Assembly (NCBI GenBank): GCA_002839675.1
Contig: PGYM01000001.1
Location: 548,683 to 612,682 of the forward strand
Direction: 5' to 3'
Source of the DNA: Methanomicrobiales archaeon HGW-Methanomicrobiales-1
GTDB lineage: Archaea; Halobacteriota; Methanomicrobia; Methanomicrobiales; Methanospirillaceae
DNA length: 64,000 bases
Shown here: positions 15,791 through 41,467 of the stretch, piece after piece
Layout: the number at the start of each line of letters is the position of its first letter
Numbering within the stretch: position 1 is the stretch's first letter
Notes under the pieces: generated by a model
What the model was told of the DNA's origin: nothing
The model's database searches: none
What the model saw: the letters and a program-made list of their open reading frames with translations, nothing else
Position numbers and translations under genes: made by a program

Positions 15791-16022
15791 TGAAGTGTAA
15801 AGGAGATCGGAGAGACATATAATATCTCCGAAATGACGGTGAGACGATGGGCAAAAGCCCATAGTCATTATAATGAGAATGGATTACGGCCAAAAAAGAC
15901 CGGGTCGAAATGGTCTCTCCGGGCAATTTCCCGGTCGTTGGAACAACGAATTATCCGACTCAAAGAGAAATATCCGGCATGGGGCGCCCGTCGTATCAAG
16001 CATCAGTTTAATCTACCGAGAA
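15791..16022 (+). pseudogene. IS481-type transposase fragment (N-terminal HTH only)
   Basis: About 76 codons that translate to a helix-turn-helix (EIGETYNISEMTVRRWAKAH), a basic linker and KYPAWGARRIKHQF. This is the usual N-terminus of IS481/IS3-group transposases. No start codon precedes the HTH in frame; a TGA lies at 15791-15793. The DDE catalytic domain is absent: the frame diverges after the QFNLP region, where unrelated sequence starts. It is therefore a dead remnant. Confidence 0.65.
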
Positions 16023-16070
16023 CAGCTATAAACCCAATCTCACCTTTTTATATGCGAAGTTAAATAAAAA

Positions 16071-17026
16071 TATAGGGGCGATTTTGGAGATTATTTCTTC
16101 AAAGAGGAATATTCAAAGATCGCTGTGTTGGGGAATAAATTAGGCAATATTCGGGATACAATTGATTGGGAGCAATTTCGACCTATAATCAGCGATATGT
16201 ATCATGATAACAAAGAATCGGGAGGCCGACCACACACTGATGAAATTCTGATGATCAAAATGCACATCCCTGCCGGATGGCATGTATTGTCGGATTATGA
16301 ATTAGAACTACTCGCTACGGTCCAGGAATCATTTCGGCATTTCCTTAGGTATCCGGAGAAAATCCCGGATTGATCGACAATCTGGAAATTTTGTGAAGAC
16401 CTGTCGAAGAACGGAAAGATACCTCTCATCTGGGAAGATCTACAGCGCCAGCTGGGATAGAATGGGTATACGATAAAGCGCGGTAGCATTCAGGATGCGT
16501 CATTCATTACCTCAGATCCGGGACATGCGTCTTCCGAAAAGCCTCATGGGGGTATTGCAAAGACTCGACGAAGTCGTGATGGGACTTGGGCAAAGAAATA
16601 ATAAAAATCCGAATTTGGGTACAAAGTCCACACGATTATTGATAAAGAATATCAGTTCATCTGGAGATTTGACACAACAACTGCGCAATGGATGATAGTC
16701 AGATCGATCTGTCGCAAAAAGGTGAAACAGTTTACCGGGACAAAGAATATTTTAGTAAAACACCTTTTGCGTCGATAGATAAAACCATGCGAAGATCTGT
16801 TTGGGGTAAACCACTCTCCGAGAAGAACAAAAGGAGAAATTGGGCTATCAGCAATGTTCGAAGTCTTGTTGAATGACCATTTGCGGTGATTAAACGGGTG
16901 TTTCATTCCGGTCATGTAATGGTTACTACACACCTACGGGTCCATGCAAAAAATCTCTTTGCCGGTTTTTCTTACGATCTTTTTAATCTCGTAACTATTC
17001 AAAAAATTCATCCGGTTCAGCAATAA
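16071..17026 (+). pseudogene. Degenerate IS5-family transposase
   Basis: A nearly full-length transposase can be followed through four decay points. Codons from 16071 read DTIDWEQFRPIISDMYH, GGRPHTDEILMIKM and SFRHFLRYPEKIPD, then a TGA at 16371. In the same frame follow STIWKFCEDLSK, a TAG near 16470, IKRGSIQDASFITSDPGH, and a TAATAA near 16600 before FGYKVHTIIDKEY. A frameshift near 16690 moves to DDSQIDLSQKGETVYRDKEYF and KRRNWAIS. After a TGA near 16876 the end reads PFAVIKRVFHSGHV and stops at 17026. This layout is typical of IS5-family DDE transposases of Methanomicrobiales. It cannot make an active protein. Confidence 0.8.
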
Positions 17027-18466: not shown

Positions 18467-19684
18467 TTAGGATTGTGGATAAAGTTTTCCTGTATTACAT
18501 TCATCTGTAGATTTTTTCAGTGTGGTATATAATAATAGCACCCTTTTAATATATTGGATTAATCCATAACAAAAATGCCGAAACTTAGAATTATATCCTT
18601 CCGCGAAAATTAGCGCTCGAATCATGAGAATAATTTCGTATTTCATGGGCAACAGAATCAAGCCATTCGCAAGTATTCTGAACACAAATGAATTCTTATG
18701 AGTGATATTAAATGTTGTTTTATATCCATACGCATTCATCTTAACATGTAAAATTGTTTCGAGAATAAGTACTTCCCACCAAAAAAATTTTCCATGCCAG
18801 CGAGGCTCATCTGCATTGGAACGGAAACCTTGCAAAAAGCCATTACCACTTTTGGTGCGTGTATCCCCCCACCATTGTTTACCATGTACAGTTGATTTCA
18901 GAAGTGATGGAGAGTAAGTAATGTTGTATTCAGTACAGAACGACCGCAATATATGTTCTGGATTAGCATGAAGGGATTCTAAAGTAATTACCCGATCATC
19001 TTTCATTAAATTGCCCTGATGGCAACATAAAACGTATCGTAAAACATAGTTAAAGAGTTTTTGAAATTCGTATATATTACCTTTGCATTCAATCTTACCA
19101 TTGAAATCACTTGGATGAAAATCGATACGACTACTTAAGCCATTCAGAGGATGGCGCGTCATTAGCAGAACTTTCACATCTGGGAAATCCACCCTAAAAT
19201 GCTTAGGAGCATCTTTCCAGTGGATATGATAAAATAATAAACGCGTTTTGTAAATATTTTGTCTGGTCACTAAGGCATACGCAATGTGAATTGCAATAAA
19301 AAAATTTTTCTTATTGAAAGTATGCACCTTAAATATATTATAGAGATGTTGTTGGAACTCAAATGAATCAAAAGAGAAGGATTCGTTCTGGTTCTCTCCC
19401 AGTTTATCCCATCGCTCCATTTCAAATATTTTTCCCTCAAACTTATGGGAATATTCTAGCGTAAATTCATTAATCAAAAACTTGAGATCCCGATCCTTGA
19501 ATTTAGATCTTTCCCAGAATTGATGGAAATTCCAAATTCCCCTAAACGTTAGAATCTCTTCATGACCATCGAGCAGACTATCAAAAAAGTCACTGCCCCC
19601 ACGTGCATCTACGGTTAATGCTAGAATGGGGAGCTCGGAAACATGGTTAAAAAGCTCTTGATAATTAATGGTTTGTTCTTTCAT
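18467..19684 (-). CDS. PAPS-dependent sulfotransferase
   Basis: A 405-residue protein that I read as a sulfotransferase, moving the sulfuryl group of PAPS to an acceptor. Residues 20-44 (LALTVDARGGSDFFDSLLDG) match the 5'-phosphosulfate loop of the family, in which small residues precede a Ser/Thr-rich turn and LLDxHPxI. Residues 170-188 (KVLLMTRHPLNGLSSRIDFH) match the 3'-phosphate site, with R177 and S184/S185 in the expected R-x7-S spacing. RVITLESLHANPEHIL resembles the later 'yEdL...P' region. Near the C-terminus is a hydrophobic helix. It lies 16 bases after the PHP phosphatase gene and opposite the PAPS-forming operon. The acceptor is probably a surface glycan. The P-loop is divergent (GGSDFF rather than SGTTLL), so the call is strong mainly through context. 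Confidence 0.75.
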   Translation of the reverse strand: MKEQTINYQELFNHVSELPILALTVDARGGSDFFDSLLDGHEEILTFRGIWNFHQFWERSKFKDRDLKFLINEFTLEYSHKFEGKIFEMERWDKLGENQNESFSFDSFEFQQHLYNIFKVHTFNKKNFFIAIHIAYALVTRQNIYKTRLLFYHIHWKDAPKHFRVDFPDVKVLLMTRHPLNGLSSRIDFHPSDFNGKIECKGNIYEFQKLFNYVLRYVLCCHQGNLMKDDRVITLESLHANPEHILRSFCTEYNITYSPSLLKSTVHGKQWWGDTRTKSGNGFLQGFRSNADEPRWHGKFFWWEVLILETILHVKMNAYGYKTTFNITHKNSFVFRILANGLILLPMKYEIILMIRALIFAEGYNSKFRHFCYGLIQYIKRVLLLYTTLKKSTDECNTGKLYPQS

Positions 19685-19700
19685 AGATTGACTTTACCCA

Positions 19701-20648
19701 TCAATTAAAAAAATATTCATATTGTCCTCGTAATTCTTTATTTCGATGAAATTTATAATATTTTAACGTTTCAACATATTGTTTTTCCAATCGAACCTCC
19801 CCCAAACGCACGTCCTCCCAACCATGGCAGTCCGATCCCCCGGTCATGATCACACCATACTTTAACGCGGCACATTTATAATATTCAACTTGTTTTGAAG
19901 TATGTTTACTATAAAACACCTCTACCCCATCAAGCCCATATCCAACATACCGCGCAATATCCTTTTCACCGAGGGCACTCCGGTCCCCAAGATACCCGGG
20001 ATGAGCAAGGACTGCCACCCCACCAGCCTTATGAATCAGCCCAATAGCACCCTCTGGCGATATCTTAAACCTCTCAACATACGCCCTTCCTCCGCTGCCA
20101 ATATATTCGGGAGTAAATGCTTCTGCTGGCTCCCTGATATAGCCCATCTCCAGCATTGCCCGTGCAATATGCGGCCTGCCGATAAATGGCGTTCCCGAAA
20201 TATCACGCACTCGGTCTAAAGAAATATCGACACCAAGATCATTAAGCTTTTCTACCATCTCTACAGTTCGGTTATCACGAGCACGAATCATTTTTGATAG
20301 GAAATCGATTAGCATTATATTGGAGGGATCAATAAAATAGCCCAAAATATGTACTTCTTTCTCACCATCCAAGGTAGATAATTCAATTCCTGGAATTACT
20401 TCGATCTCCAGTTCATTACCTGCACTAATCGCCTCTTCAAGTCCGCTCGTGGAATCATGGTCAGTAATTGCAATAGCAGATAAACCTGCATCTTTTGCAA
20501 ATTTCACCATCTGGTATGGCGTGAGTGTGCCATCGGAAGCGGTGGTATGGAGATGTAGATCCGCTCCTCCAATAAAATTGTCGTCATTGTTGTTGAGGCT
20601 GGCAAGTAAATTTCCAGTTCTCATCTTGATTGTCTCGTGATCAGTCAT
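19701..20648 (-). CDS. PHP-domain phosphoesterase, candidate 3',5'-nucleotide (PAP) phosphatase
   Basis: A 315-residue PHP-superfamily metalloenzyme. Metal-binding motifs are all present: ADLHLHTTASDGTLTP, ITDHDS, EVIPGIELST, HILGYFID, RPHIARAM, VLAHPGY, DGVEVFY and MTGGSDCHG. This is the COG0613 (TrpH/YciV) subgroup. In bacteria, members hydrolyse 3',5'-bisphosphate nucleotides such as PAP to AMP (characterised for the Chromobacterium protein Cv1693) or act as a 5'-exonuclease (RNase AM). It is the first gene of an operon whose second gene is a sulfotransferase, which releases PAP, so PAP removal is the natural inference. The start may be the ATG at 20648 or the internal Met at codon 9. Confidence 0.85.
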   Translation of the reverse strand: MTDHETIKMRTGNLLASLNNNDDNFIGGADLHLHTTASDGTLTPYQMVKFAKDAGLSAIAITDHDSTSGLEEAISAGNELEIEVIPGIELSTLDGEKEVHILGYFIDPSNIMLIDFLSKMIRARDNRTVEMVEKLNDLGVDISLDRVRDISGTPFIGRPHIARAMLEMGYIREPAEAFTPEYIGSGGRAYVERFKISPEGAIGLIHKAGGVAVLAHPGYLGDRSALGEKDIARYVGYGLDGVEVFYSKHTSKQVEYYKCAALKYGVIMTGGSDCHGWEDVRLGEVRLEKQYVETLKYYKFHRNKELRGQYEYFFN

Positions 20649-21065
20649 GTGTGTATTTTTCGGGTGTCCTTCGGTTTCTTTAGATCCTTAGAACGTTGAT
20701 AGGTTTTGTCGTTTTCCAAGTCCAGACCTACCAGAAAAATATAGGGAACTCTCTTTTTCCGGTATCTTGTATCGTCACTTCATAACTCTTCGATAAAATT
20801 TCTGACATAAGTGTGTCTTTTGTGATATTTAGTAATTGTCGAATGGGGAGGAGTGATAACACCGTCCTTTCTGAACCAGACTTGACTATTTCGTGTTATC
20901 AGACTGCCACAACCCTTCATAGGTATCGGGCTGGAAAATTTTCTCTCCATTCCATTTCTATTCAAACACTATTCTTGGGATCCTTGCTTAATAGTCACCT
21001 TACAAAACTCATTGTTTAAATTGTTAAAGTTAGGTACATATTATGTAGAGAAAATGTGATTCAAC
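20649..21065. other. Divergent promoter region between the two sulfation operons
   Basis: About 417 bases between the PHP gene (minus) and the pyruvate-kinase-like gene (plus). Short frames inside it have no start signals or recognisable domains. A minus-strand 61-codon frame at 20780-20965 ends in GVITPPHSTITKYHKRH and might be a gene remnant, but I cannot identify it. It must hold both divergent promoters; the plus-strand one is annotated separately. Confidence 0.5.
21014..21022 (+). promoter_or_regulatory. TATA-like box of the PK/APS-kinase/ATP-sulfurylase operon
   Basis: GTTTAAATT at 21014-21022, centred about 48 bases before the ATG at 21066, is the best archaeal TATA-like sequence there and would start transcription near 21044. 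A GTGAT at 21056-21060, five bases before the ATG, fits the archaeal ribosome-binding consensus GGTGAT. Confidence 0.4.
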
Positions 21066-22034
21066 ATGCGACAATTCGATATTACCGCTACAATTAATCC
21101 TAAAACAGTTGATGATAAATTTCTAATCGATTTACATCAATCAGGTGTTACAATATTCCGAATTAATGGTGCTCATATTGATCCGAGTGACATTACGGAA
21201 ATTTCAAAAAAAATAAAAAAATCGCTCAAAAATAAAGTGAAAATTCAAGTTGACCTCGAGGGATCAAAGATACGTACAAAAGATATCTATGAGCCAATAT
21301 GTATTAAAAAAGGGAAATTGATTGAATTAAAACAAACTAATTTTAACCGAACGGATTTTATTTCGATTCTCGATAAGGGGGACGTCATTCTTTCGAGTGA
21401 TGGGCAGTTGGAACTGACGGTTGAGAAGATCACAAAGGAGAAAGTATCATTATCTTCCCGTTGTGAAGGTTTTCTTCAGAATAACAAAGGGGTACATCTT
21501 ACAAGCAAATCACTTGCACATCTCCCGGTTTTTACACAAAAAGATCAGATATTAATAGAGCATATGAAAGAAAGTCAAATTGATTATGCAGGAATATCCT
21601 TTGTTCGCAGTCCTGAACAGGTTAAAGAGGTTCTATCTATATTCCATAATTCTCCGGTAAAACCAATTATTAAACTGGAGACAAAAGAAGCAACCAAAAA
21701 TGAGACCTTAAAGCAGATATTATCATTATATGATACATTTTCAATAGATCGGGGTGACCTGATGAGTGAAGTTGGGATAATTCAATTCCCAGAGGTATTT
21801 AACCATACGCTTGAGGCGTGCCTCTCATATAAGAAACGTATATTTGTAGCGACACAAATCTTTGCTTCAATGGTAAATCATAACTTACCATATATTTCTG
21901 AATTGATGGAATTTAGCAGATTATACCACGCTAACATTTCAGGAATCCAATTATCAGAAGAAATAGCTATTGGTAAATATCCATTCGAAATTCTCAAGTT
22001 GATCAATGAGATGAAAAAAAGCGGTGAAAAATAA
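21066..22034 (+). CDS. Pyruvate-kinase-like barrel protein lacking the C-terminal domain
   Basis: A 322-residue homologue of pyruvate kinase, which is normally about 470 residues. The A-domain start has FRINGAH (canonical RxNxSH). VDLEGSKIRT corresponds to LDTKGPEIRT, keeping the Asp and Arg but replacing Lys-Gly-Pro-Glu by Glu-Gly-Ser-Lys. An inserted B domain spans about residues 70-135. IIKLETKEA keeps the catalytic Lys and Glu (KIE in the family), SIDRGDLMSEVG keeps RGDL, and VATQIFASM matches ATQMLESM. The allosteric C-domain is wholly absent. It overlaps the APS kinase gene by one base (TAATG), so it belongs to the PAPS operon. It may recycle ADP to ATP with PEP for PAPS synthesis, or act on another substrate; the altered phosphate/metal-loop residues make standard kinase activity uncertain. 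Confidence 0.85.
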   Translation: MRQFDITATINPKTVDDKFLIDLHQSGVTIFRINGAHIDPSDITEISKKIKKSLKNKVKIQVDLEGSKIRTKDIYEPICIKKGKLIELKQTNFNRTDFISILDKGDVILSSDGQLELTVEKITKEKVSLSSRCEGFLQNNKGVHLTSKSLAHLPVFTQKDQILIEHMKESQIDYAGISFVRSPEQVKEVLSIFHNSPVKPIIKLETKEATKNETLKQILSLYDTFSIDRGDLMSEVGIIQFPEVFNHTLEACLSYKKRIFVATQIFASMVNHNLPYISELMEFSRLYHANISGIQLSEEIAIGKYPFEILKLINEMKKSGEK

Positions 22035-22570
22035 TGGGACCCGTTATTTGGTTTATTGGTCTGTCCGGGTCGGGAAAAACAACTCTGGCATTAAAAACCA
22101 GGGAATTTCTGGAGAAACACCCGAATATTTACCCTGATGTATCACACTGGGAAATAATTGATGGAGATATTGTGAGAGGATTTCTCGAATCTGAAATTGG
22201 TTACAATTTTGAAGACCGTAGGAAATCTGTTATTATTATGGGTCTTCTTGCATATTACCTGTCAAAAAATAATAATATCGGGGTAATTGTTGCAAACATT
22301 TCCCCTTTCCATGATATAAGACAAAAGTTCAGGAAGGAAATCCCTAGGTATACGGAAATTTTTTGTCAGTGCACAATATCTGCATGTATGAGCAGAGATC
22401 CAAAAGGTCATTATAAAAACCAATGCAGGAATGGAATTAAAAATTTTATAGGTCTCGATATACCATTTCAAGTGCCAGAAAATCCTCATTTGATATTGAA
22501 TACTGAATCTAATACCATTGATCAATGTATGGTATTAATCTCAAATTTTTTTTATGAATTAGAACAATGA
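22034..22570 (+). CDS. cysC: Adenylylsulfate (APS) kinase
   Basis: A 178-residue P-loop kinase that phosphorylates APS at the 3' position to make PAPS, the sulfuryl donor. GLSGSGKTT is the Walker A. IDGDIVRGF, NFEDRRKS, ANISPFHDIRQKFRKEI and RDPKGHYK follow in CysC order, with FIGLDIPFQVPENPHL in place of the usual FTGIDxPYExPxxPE. Length fits the stand-alone family (about 180-200). It overlaps the pyruvate-kinase-like gene by one base and ATP sulfurylase by four, so translation of the three is coupled. Very AT-rich. Confidence 0.93.
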   Translation: MGPVIWFIGLSGSGKTTLALKTREFLEKHPNIYPDVSHWEIIDGDIVRGFLESEIGYNFEDRRKSVIIMGLLAYYLSKNNNIGVIVANISPFHDIRQKFRKEIPRYTEIFCQCTISACMSRDPKGHYKNQCRNGIKNFIGLDIPFQVPENPHLILNTESNTIDQCMVLISNFFYELEQ

Positions 22571-23724
22571 GGTTAAAAATGATCGATCCATATGGCTCTA
22601 ATAAACTGGTTAATGGTTTTATCAAGGATAATCAGGAAAAAATCATTGAAGAGTTACAGGCTGAAAATACACCTTCGATTACTTGCAATGATGATATAAT
22701 TATTGAATGTAATCGTATTGCCGATGGCAGCTTGACTCCCGTTGATGGTTTTTTCAGAGAAAACGATCTTGATTCACTTATAGAAACAAATAAAACTGAA
22801 AATGGCTATTATTTTCCTATTCCTATTTTATTACAGACTCCGAAAATTACTAATGATGCCAAACTCGAAACGATGTTATTGAAAGATGAGGGTGGTAACA
22901 TTGTTGGCATTCTTGACGATATATCATTTTTTAAATATGATACTAAAAAAATTTGTGATTATATTTTTGGAAATTATGATCAACATCATCCCGGTGTAAA
23001 AAAAATATTATCAATGGGAAATAAATTTGTTGGAGGAAAAATTCAAATCGTCCCATCAGATTCCCCGTTATCACATTACTGCATGAGTCCTACTAATTCC
23101 AGAAAAGAGATAATAAAACGTAAATGGAAAACCTGTGTCGGTTTCCAGACTCGAAACATTCCCCATAGATCTCATGAGTATTTGCAGAGAATTGCATTAG
23201 AATTTTTTGATGGTCTTTTAATTCACCCAATTATTGGATGGAAAAAAAATAATGACTATCGACCAGAAGTCGTAATGGAAGTATACAAATATCTTGTGAA
23301 TACCTACTATCCAAAAAACCGGGTGATTTTAAGTGGATTAGAAGCCCAAATGAGGTATGCTGGGCCAAAAGAGGCAGTACTTCATGCAATTATACGACAG
23401 AACTATGGTTGCAGTCACTTTATTGTTGGAAGAGATCATGCCGGAGTGAATAATTATTACGGGAAGTATGACGCCCATTTGATATTTGATTCCGTTCAAA
23501 AATATTTAGACATTTCAATATTAAAACTCAAAGGACCATATTATTGTAAAAAATGCAAATGCATCACCACTGAAAATTCCTGCGGTCATGACACACGGTA
23601 TCATATAGATGTCAGTGGAACAAAAATTAGAAATTTCCTGCAATCTTCGCACTCACCCCCAGCTACACTTATTCGAAAAGACATAACAAACCGAATTCTA
23701 CAATTTGATGAGATTTTTATCTGA
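22567..23724 (+). CDS. sat: ATP sulfurylase (sulfate adenylyltransferase)
   Basis: A 385-residue homo-oligomeric-type ATP sulfurylase that forms APS and pyrophosphate from ATP and sulfate. An N-terminal PUA-like domain (IADGSLTPVDGFF) precedes the catalytic domain with GFQTRNIPHRSHEYLQ (canonical QTRNPxHxxH), GRDHAGVNNYYG and VSGTKIRNFL. A zinc-binding Cys set, YYCKKCKCIT to NSCGH, near residues 330-348 matches the bacterial/archaeal single-domain form. It is the last gene of the three-gene operon. The RNP is RNI-P here, a small deviation in the nucleotide loop. Together with APS kinase it supplies PAPS. Confidence 0.95.
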   Translation: MRLKMIDPYGSNKLVNGFIKDNQEKIIEELQAENTPSITCNDDIIIECNRIADGSLTPVDGFFRENDLDSLIETNKTENGYYFPIPILLQTPKITNDAKLETMLLKDEGGNIVGILDDISFFKYDTKKICDYIFGNYDQHHPGVKKILSMGNKFVGGKIQIVPSDSPLSHYCMSPTNSRKEIIKRKWKTCVGFQTRNIPHRSHEYLQRIALEFFDGLLIHPIIGWKKNNDYRPEVVMEVYKYLVNTYYPKNRVILSGLEAQMRYAGPKEAVLHAIIRQNYGCSHFIVGRDHAGVNNYYGKYDAHLIFDSVQKYLDISILKLKGPYYCKKCKCITTENSCGHDTRYHIDVSGTKIRNFLQSSHSPPATLIRKDITNRILQFDEIFI

Positions 23725-40213: not shown

Positions 40214-41467
40214 TCATTTCCAGTCATGGTTAATATAAAAAATCCCATGATAACCTTTTACAATATTATAGCCAGATCCTTTCGGATCACAAGAATCAAT
40301 AGAAAATGAGTATGCATCATGTACACGATCTATGTGTTCCTGTCCATGAATATTCAATTCACATTTAATCAAATAATCTCCTGCATATAAGTTCAGCGGA
40401 CTCATATAGCATTCAATAATATTCATGCCAGGTTTTAAGGAGACATCCCGTCCATCGATCAATTGGGTATCAAACATACAAATATTTTGAATTTCATCTG
40501 AAATATAGAGTGTCGCGGAACATCTCACATCAGATTTAGCTTCCACAGTAAGTTGAACAATCAGTGGTTTGAATGGATTGATCATTTTTGGATTTCTTTG
40601 TTCATCGGAAATTACAGTAATCTCCATAATTTTTGCACGGAGATTGCAATATCTTTCCCGCGTTCGTTCAGCAATCGGAATTATTTCTTCATCTGGTGAA
40701 TTTTTGTAACCTAGATAATAATCTATGGCTTCATTGGTGTCCCCGTCAAATTGGATCTGACCTGCACTAATAACAATACAACGATTGCATAATGCTTTCA
40801 CTGCAGTCAGGTTATGGCTTACAAAAATTACTGTTCTCCCCTCTCTTCCCACTTCCCCCATTTTACCAAGGCATTTTTTCTGAAAGCTTGCATCTCCCAC
40901 TGCAAGCACTTCATCTACCAGTAATATTTCCGGTTCGAGATGAGCTGCAACCGCAAATGCCAGCCGGACATACATACCGCTTGAATACCGTTTCACCGGG
41001 GTATCGATAAATTGTTCAATCTCAGAAAATTTTACAATATCATCGAATTTTCGTTCAACTTCATGCCTCTTCATTCCAAGGATGGATCCCGATAAAAAAA
41101 TATTTTCACGTCCAGTCAGTTCCGAATGAAATCCGGTTCCGACTTCAAGAAGAGAACCGACCCTCCCATGGAGTTCAACACAACCTTCTGTTGGTGTAGT
41201 AATGCGGGATAAAATTTTCAGCAGTGTGCTCTTTCCAGCACCGTTATGGCCAATGATACCGACAATTTCCCCTGATTCAATCTGAAATGATACCCCCTTC
41301 AGCGCCCAGAATCCATCCTCCGGTGGAGTACGATGTAATATCTTAAATGGTGCTTTTAATGAATTGACAATCGCATCGCGAAGTGTGTGATATTGTTCCT
41401 GCAGTCCGCCAATGGCGTATTTCTTGCCGAGATGGCTGACACGGATGGCGATATTATAGGACGACAT
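40214..41467 (-). CDS. wzt: O-antigen-type ABC transporter ATP-binding protein with C-terminal carbohydrate-binding domain
   Basis: A 417-residue ATPase driving export of a completed lipid-linked glycan. Walker A is GHNGAGKST, the signature is YSSGM, Walker [13 protein letters not shown] and the switch His lies in FVSHN. Residues from about 265 to the end form the extra beta-sandwich domain found in Wzt proteins that recognise the terminal modification of the polysaccharide before export. That fits a locus with terminal-type modifications such as methylation, sulfation or amidination. Its permease partner is at 43828-44682. Confidence 0.93.

Follow-up and report, generated by a model that had tools for sequence, protein, structure and literature searches.

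Between positions 18,467 and 23,724 of the window (the whole 64-kb stretch of DNA that was analysed), five intact open reading frames without internal stops lie where the original prediction had placed them. They form two divergent operons: on the plus strand, the gene of a pyruvate-kinase (PK) protein is followed by those of an APS kinase (APSK) and an ATP sulfurylase (ATPS), and on the minus strand, the gene of a PHP-family phosphoesterase lies 16 bp upstream of that of a sulfotransferase-like protein. The divergent arrangement, with 417 bp between the operons, was recovered as described earlier, as were the overlaps within the plus-strand operon, 1 base between PK and APSK (TAATG) and 4 bases between APSK and ATPS (ATGA). 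The module and its context comprise the following features:

15833-16373, plus strand: transposase remnants adjoining the module, of two kinds (HTH_32 and DUF772 fragments)
18467-19684, minus strand: sulfotransferase-like group transferase, 405 aa; sub-threshold PF13469 match, 5'-PSB-like and 3'-PB-like motifs
19701-20648, minus strand: PHP-family phosphoesterase, proposed 3',5'-bisphosphonucleotide (PAP) phosphatase, 315 aa; PF02811
20649-21065, no strand: divergent intergenic region of 417 bp separating both operons
21066-22034, plus strand: PK A+B-domain protein without C domain, 322 aa; PF00224, 4e-38
22034-22570, plus strand: APS kinase (APSK, CysC-type), 178 aa; PF01583, 1.6e-32
22567-23724, plus strand: ATP sulfurylase (ATPS, Sat-type, PUA_2 and catalytic domain), 385 aa; PF01747, 1.1e-79
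40214-41467, minus strand: Wzt-type ABC ATPase with Wzt C-terminal domain (context, surface-glycan exporter); PF00005, PF14524
43828-44682, minus strand: ABC-2 type (Wzm-like) permease (context); PF01061

The module is located within a glycan-gene island that has a G+C content of 38.6%, versus 50.4% for the stretch from 45 to 57 kb, and that encodes sugar-nucleotide enzymes, glycosyltransferases, NeuB, the amidotransferase WbuX and the Wzm/Wzt-type exporter, which bears out the proposed surface-glycan setting. The host is a methanogen, as had also been proposed, since an F420 reductase gene and Mmp10, the arginine methyltransferase of methyl-coenzyme M reductase, are both present in the window above their cut-offs. 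Within the module, the PHP gene differs from its four partners in G+C content (43% versus 34-35%), suggesting a different recent history. All ORFs in the stretch from 15.6 to 17.5 kb of the window are shorter than 100 aa. Within the 64-kb window, no sulfate transporter came to light, and no reductase was found in or near the module. A dissimilatory use of sulfate activation was considered and dropped, because neither APS reductase nor sulfite reductase lies beside the module.

Family matches and catalytic motifs of the five proteins

Profile searches with the five proteins gave strong matches in Pfam and NCBIfam for PK, APSK, ATPS and PHP, but for the sulfotransferase-like protein the match was sub-threshold. 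ATPS, of which this genome has only one, matches PF01747 with 267 bits and PUA_2 (PF14306) with 104 bits (7.5e-30), and it scores above the cut-off of PRK04149 (414.7 versus 387 bits) and slightly below that of TIGR00339 (313 versus 323 bits). It keeps the motifs QTRN at position 194, HRSH (HxxH) at 200-203 and GRDHAG at 288 as well as a zinc-like Cys/His motif, is approximately 40% identical to ordinary archaeal ATPSs, and aligns along its whole length with its closest PDB entry, 8a8d, a characterised ATPS of Methanothermococcus. APSK scores 113 bits against PF01583 (cut-off 21.1), misses the equivalog cut-off of TIGR00455 (127.6 versus 138.7 bits), and displays the P-loop GLSGSGKTT together with DGD-x-x-R, ISP and NFxG. 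An alignment with its phosphoramidate-type homologue from another genome of the order (G014, locus L093) showed ISN and NVVG there in place of ISP and NFxG. Furthermore, the L093 homologue lies above the cut-off of 127 bits for the CDP-amidate-kinase-like group PRK05541, with 157 bits, whereas the APSK of the window lies below it, with 106 bits. In their catalytic motifs, ATPS and APSK are thus the canonical pair that had been predicted.

The PHP protein matches PF02811 with an E-value of 1.9e-13, and its metal-ligand motifs are all recognisable (HxH, SDG, DHD, GIE, VHI, LAHPG and SDxH). Its best NCBIfam model is NF041577 (3',5'-nucleoside bisphosphate phosphatase) with 177 bits, which misses the equivalog cut-off of 400, and the second-best is RNase RNM with 163 bits, likewise below its cut-off; in the PDB, it matches 7ug9, a 5'-3' exoribonuclease. 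Its placement in the PAP-phosphatase subgroup therefore agrees with the best model, the motifs and the gene layout at locus L066 (see below), but not with the NF041577 cut-off. A search of this genome for a DHH phosphatase of the MtPAPP type, using the DHH protein of an archaeal ATPS operon as a query, found no match, and the positive control (G252) did match.

The PK protein (PF00224, 131.7 bits) comprises an A and a B domain and stops at 322 aa, short of a C domain; its TIGR01064 score is 175 bits versus a cut-off of 306. An alignment with 12 full-length PKs showed that the catalytic residues R, N, D, R, K, E, D, T and S are kept, which align with R73, N75, D113, R120, K270, E272, D296, T328 and S362 of muscle PK. 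The protein has an alanine at the K+-site serine and a lysine in the 'GPxIR' position, the latter of which we take to mark K+-independent PKs. PDB entry 8iw2 is a pyruvate kinase of 321 aa.

For the transferase, the match to PF13469 reached E = 0.03 and 15 bits, under the gathering cut-off of 27, NCBIfam gave no match, and a scan of its own genome for the sulfotransferase Pfam families (PF13469 and PF00685) was empty at 0.01. When a profile of the protein and its one homologue was compared to the PDB, five matches were obtained up to E = 5, all of them sulfotransferases (E 0.085-0.57). The best Foldseek match was tyrosylprotein sulfotransferase 2 (TPST2) with PAP (probability 0.90, E 0.042), which is no more than suggestive in view of the low confidence of the query model (pLDDT 50), built from a two-row alignment. 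The protein contains an R-G-G-S loop that resembles a 5'-PSB (R28-S31), conserved in the L093 homologue apart from loop details, and a 3'-phosphate-binding (3'-PB-like) R-x7-S motif, whose R177 and S185 are invariant in that homologue. Taken together, these lines of evidence, none of which is decisive alone, indicate a likely PAPS- or 3'-phosphonucleotide-dependent transferase. The original sulfotransferase call thus finds motif, sub-threshold Pfam match and PDB profile matches in agreement with it, but the protein stays below every curated threshold.

Distribution in the order and related loci

The exact five-gene set, whose co-occurrence in relatives had been named as a check, is present in none of the relatives sampled, a sample of about 230 genomes of the order and very few bacteria. 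Of 231 genomes of the order, this one alone has an ATPS homologue, and a search of 229 genomes of the order gave a single homologue of the transferase. The PK of the module is the only pyruvate kinase among 39 genomes of the genus, with none detectable in the 38 others. Since none of the 38 congeners has a PK and this ATPS is missing from the remaining 230 genomes of the order, the module is horizontally acquired, not inherited. Likewise, no PK was found beside APSK or ATPS among approximately 30 ATPS loci of the phylum. When the single PK protein was used as a query against genome contigs, all hits were ordinary PKs, either full-length or cut by a contig end, and none had PAPS genes beside it; plasmid searches returned ordinary PK, cysC and sat genes, with the PK-APSK-ATPS arrangement in none of the four loci examined. 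Searches for viral contigs with PK, ATPS and sulfotransferase and for phages with ATPS gave nothing. No PK was detected at E <= 1e-36 in 247 genomes (the phylum of a Bacteroidales genome), a search that shows little, being without a positive control. The PK-APSK-ATPS trio thus occurs in no other sampled genome, such that conservation lends no support to a role of PK in it.

CysC-CysD-CysN genes are found in three other genomes of the order, two congeners (L133, L135) and one other methanogen (L134). One CysC-CysD-CysN genome (G116) has a CysQ above cut-off, and in another (G159), a sulfotransferase of family PF00685 lies at a distance of about 18 kb. Hence, sulfate activation in this order is rare and patchy and has at least two origins. 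The CysC-CysD-CysN loci (L133, L134, L135 and L137), which amount to another PAPS route, unrelated to that of the window, in methanogens of this genus and order, adjoin a Pst-like ABC transporter.

PHP was found in three of 229 genomes of the order, that of the window and two others, each of which has a full APS-kinase-family gene, itself present in only six. A full APSK gene is present in 5 of 228 genomes, and both other carriers are among these 5 (p ~4e-4 if independent). As the two are near-identical congeners, the co-occurrence counts only once, and the link between PHP and APSK is better supported by adjacency. At locus L066, from an unrelated archaeon that belongs to a different family of the phylum, a PHP gene (37% identical) and ATPS-APSK diverge from each other as they do in the window, and two sulfotransferases confirmed by Pfam (PF00685 and PF13469) lie nearby, an arrangement that supports PHP as a PAP phosphatase. 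At L093, the PHP gene (73% identical) follows the APSK-family gene with a 4-base overlap and precedes the transferase homologue (35-36%); PHP is farther from APSK in L066 than in L093. Two sulfatase-like genes also lie beside the two sulfotransferases and the PHP-ATPS-APSK set of L066, all in one archaeal glycan island (L066:1873-13244). In other archaeal ATPS operons (L068, L070, L075), ATPS and APSK are paired with a DHH phosphatase, and the gene order is ATPS, DHH phosphoesterase, type I phosphodiesterase family protein, APSK and membrane protein.

Upstream in L093 lie genes for a PPDK-like protein that scores 879 bits against PRK05849 (cut-off 501), which we take to be the family of Cj1418, for an amidotransferase resembling gamma-glutamyl-CDP-amidate hydrolase (103 bits, below 250), and for a nucleotidyltransferase. 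This gene content is that of the Campylobacter pathway making CDP-phosphoramidate 3'-phosphate (PMC11800397). In G012, the same cassette is divided across contig ends (L136/L132), and another gene follows PHP. Two methanogens of the order harbor a Campylobacter-like CDP-phosphoramidate 3'-phosphate cassette followed by PHP (L093:3764-10215 in G014; L136/L132 in G012), and no mention of an archaeal cassette of this kind was found in the literature searched. With respect to the full sulfation cycle that had been claimed, ATPS and APSK are canonical and PHP lies near ATPS-APSK in L066, but the closest homologues of PHP and the transferase belong to a cassette without ATPS, and the pair alone is thus no proof of sulfate. 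Judging from its genomic neighbours, the pair goes with donors that bear a 3'-phosphate, whichever group is moved.

A proposed sulfation cycle and its alternatives

We consider it reasonably likely that the locus as a whole, PK included, is a module for sulfation that a methanogen has acquired horizontally and carries in its surface-polysaccharide island. ATPS would convert sulfate to APS and APSK would convert APS to PAPS, whose sulfo group the sulfotransferase would pass to a glycan, and the Wzm/Wzt-type ABC transporter of the neighbourhood would later export the sulfated glycan. The PHP enzyme would hydrolyse the released PAP, a toxic by-product, to AMP, which adenylate kinase would turn into ADP, and the translationally coupled PK would convert the ADP from APSK to ATP while spending PEP, such that PAPS synthesis would be driven by PEP. 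That sulfate is the transferred group we infer, with considerable confidence, from the presence of ATPS in the window; PAP is quite probably the substrate of PHP, and a glycan is probably the acceptor. PK is no part of the textbook PAPS or sulfation cycle and had been assigned no role in the original prediction; the coupling of PAPS synthesis to PEP via pyruvate kinase is in vitro practice of biochemists. ADP recycling would be its simplest role, because APSK releases ADP and adenylate kinase yields ADP from the AMP made by PHP, though we are evenly divided on whether PK does recycle ADP at the expense of PEP.

PK, with its catalytic residues intact, might instead be an ordinary glycolytic pyruvate kinase that was brought along by chance. 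We regard this as unlikely, given that its gene overlaps that of APSK by one base, that it has no C domain, and that the 38 congeners, which have no PK, need none. It is a good deal more doubtful that PHP is a 5'-3' exonuclease of the RNase AM type, or another phosphoesterase, that came to lie beside PAPS genes by chance. While RNase RNM scores close to the bisphosphatase model and 7ug9 is a PDB match, all three carriers in the order have the full APS-kinase-family gene, and the two genes are neighbours in the divergent pair of the window, in L093, where they overlap by 4 bp, and, at a greater distance, in L066.

The chances are slimmer still that the trio builds another 3'-phosphonucleotide donor, following the logic of Campylobacter phosphoramidate and not that of sulfate. 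The PK-like protein would then phosphorylate a small acceptor, the ATPS-like protein would adenylylate the resulting sulfate-like oxyanion, the APSK-like protein would add the 3'-phosphate, and the transferase would move the group. Pyruvate kinases can indeed phosphorylate small acceptors other than ADP in vitro, PK comes first in its operon, the place that the glutamine kinase gene takes in L093 at the head of the segment from kinase to transferase, and the same PHP (73%) and transferase (36%) serve the phosphoramidate cassette there. However, ATPS retains all motifs checked and has about 40% identity to ordinary archaeal ATPSs, and APSK is like APS kinases, not like the CDP-amidate kinase group above whose PRK05541 cut-off the L093 protein scores. 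It seems highly improbable that the operon would make a 3'-phosphoadenylyl donor other than PAPS for a surface-glycan modification of new chemistry. Just as improbable is a remnant of assimilatory sulfate reduction, in which PAPS would serve a PAPS reductase elsewhere and the PHP/transferase pair would be unrelated: ATPS loci of other archaea in the phylum (L073, L077, L082, L084) do lie, by eye, beside CysH-like reductases, but here there is no reductase in or near the module, which sits in a glycan island and abuts the divergent PHP/transferase operon.

The acquired sulfation module that we favour would bear on a question raised by Jespersen et al. (2023; PMC10322725), namely which function ATPS and APSK have in methanogens unable to use sulfate; these authors propose that the two may feed a non-canonical sulfotransferase in other methanogens. 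The module, in which a transferase is accompanied by its own by-product phosphatase, offers a candidate reason for the retention of ATPS and APSK in methanogens without sulfate assimilation. Through gene order, it would also connect the PHP family with the disposal of PAP in archaea, and it suggests that in nature, too, a dedicated pyruvate kinase may link PEP to the synthesis of PAPS. In this context, related methanogens use the same phosphatase/transferase pair in an apparent phosphoramidate pathway, and glycan decorations thus look like exchangeable cassettes.

Among known proteins, Cv1693, whose structure is presumably PDB entry 2yb1, is the counterpart of the PHP protein. The latter shares the fold, the recognisable metal-ligand motifs and a full-length alignment with Cv1693, which is cited in PMC8268124 as a PHP pAp phosphatase of Chromobacterium violaceum, but it is archaeal, operon-linked to a transferase and well below the equivalog cut-off. 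As in Methanothermococcus thermolithotrophicus with its ATPS, APSK and MtPAPP (PMC10322725), a methanogen here has an APSK and an ATPS of the Sat type whose gene neighbourhood includes a PAP phosphatase of their own, a putative one in the window; that organism, however, has a PAPS reductase and a DHH-type PAP phosphatase, whereas the window has no reductase and instead a transferase, PHP and PK. Sulfation cluster VI of Campylobacter jejuni HS:19 (PMC8743553) likewise combines sulfate activation, an APS kinase and a putative sulfotransferase in a glycan locus of a host that does not reduce sulfate, but it has a CysDN-type sulfurylase and a sulfate permease, with no PAP phosphatase or PK listed. 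The CysC-CysD-CysN loci of the order (L133, L134, L135) are rare PAPS-making loci like the module, but with an unrelated sulfurylase, a CysQ-type phosphatase where one was seen, and no PK. Finally, the Cj1415-1418 pathway of C. jejuni (PMC11800397), in which an APSK homologue makes a 3'-phosphonucleotide donor, is of the same type as L093, and where that pathway has a glutamine kinase, a cytidylyltransferase and a hydrolase, the window has ATPS and PK instead.
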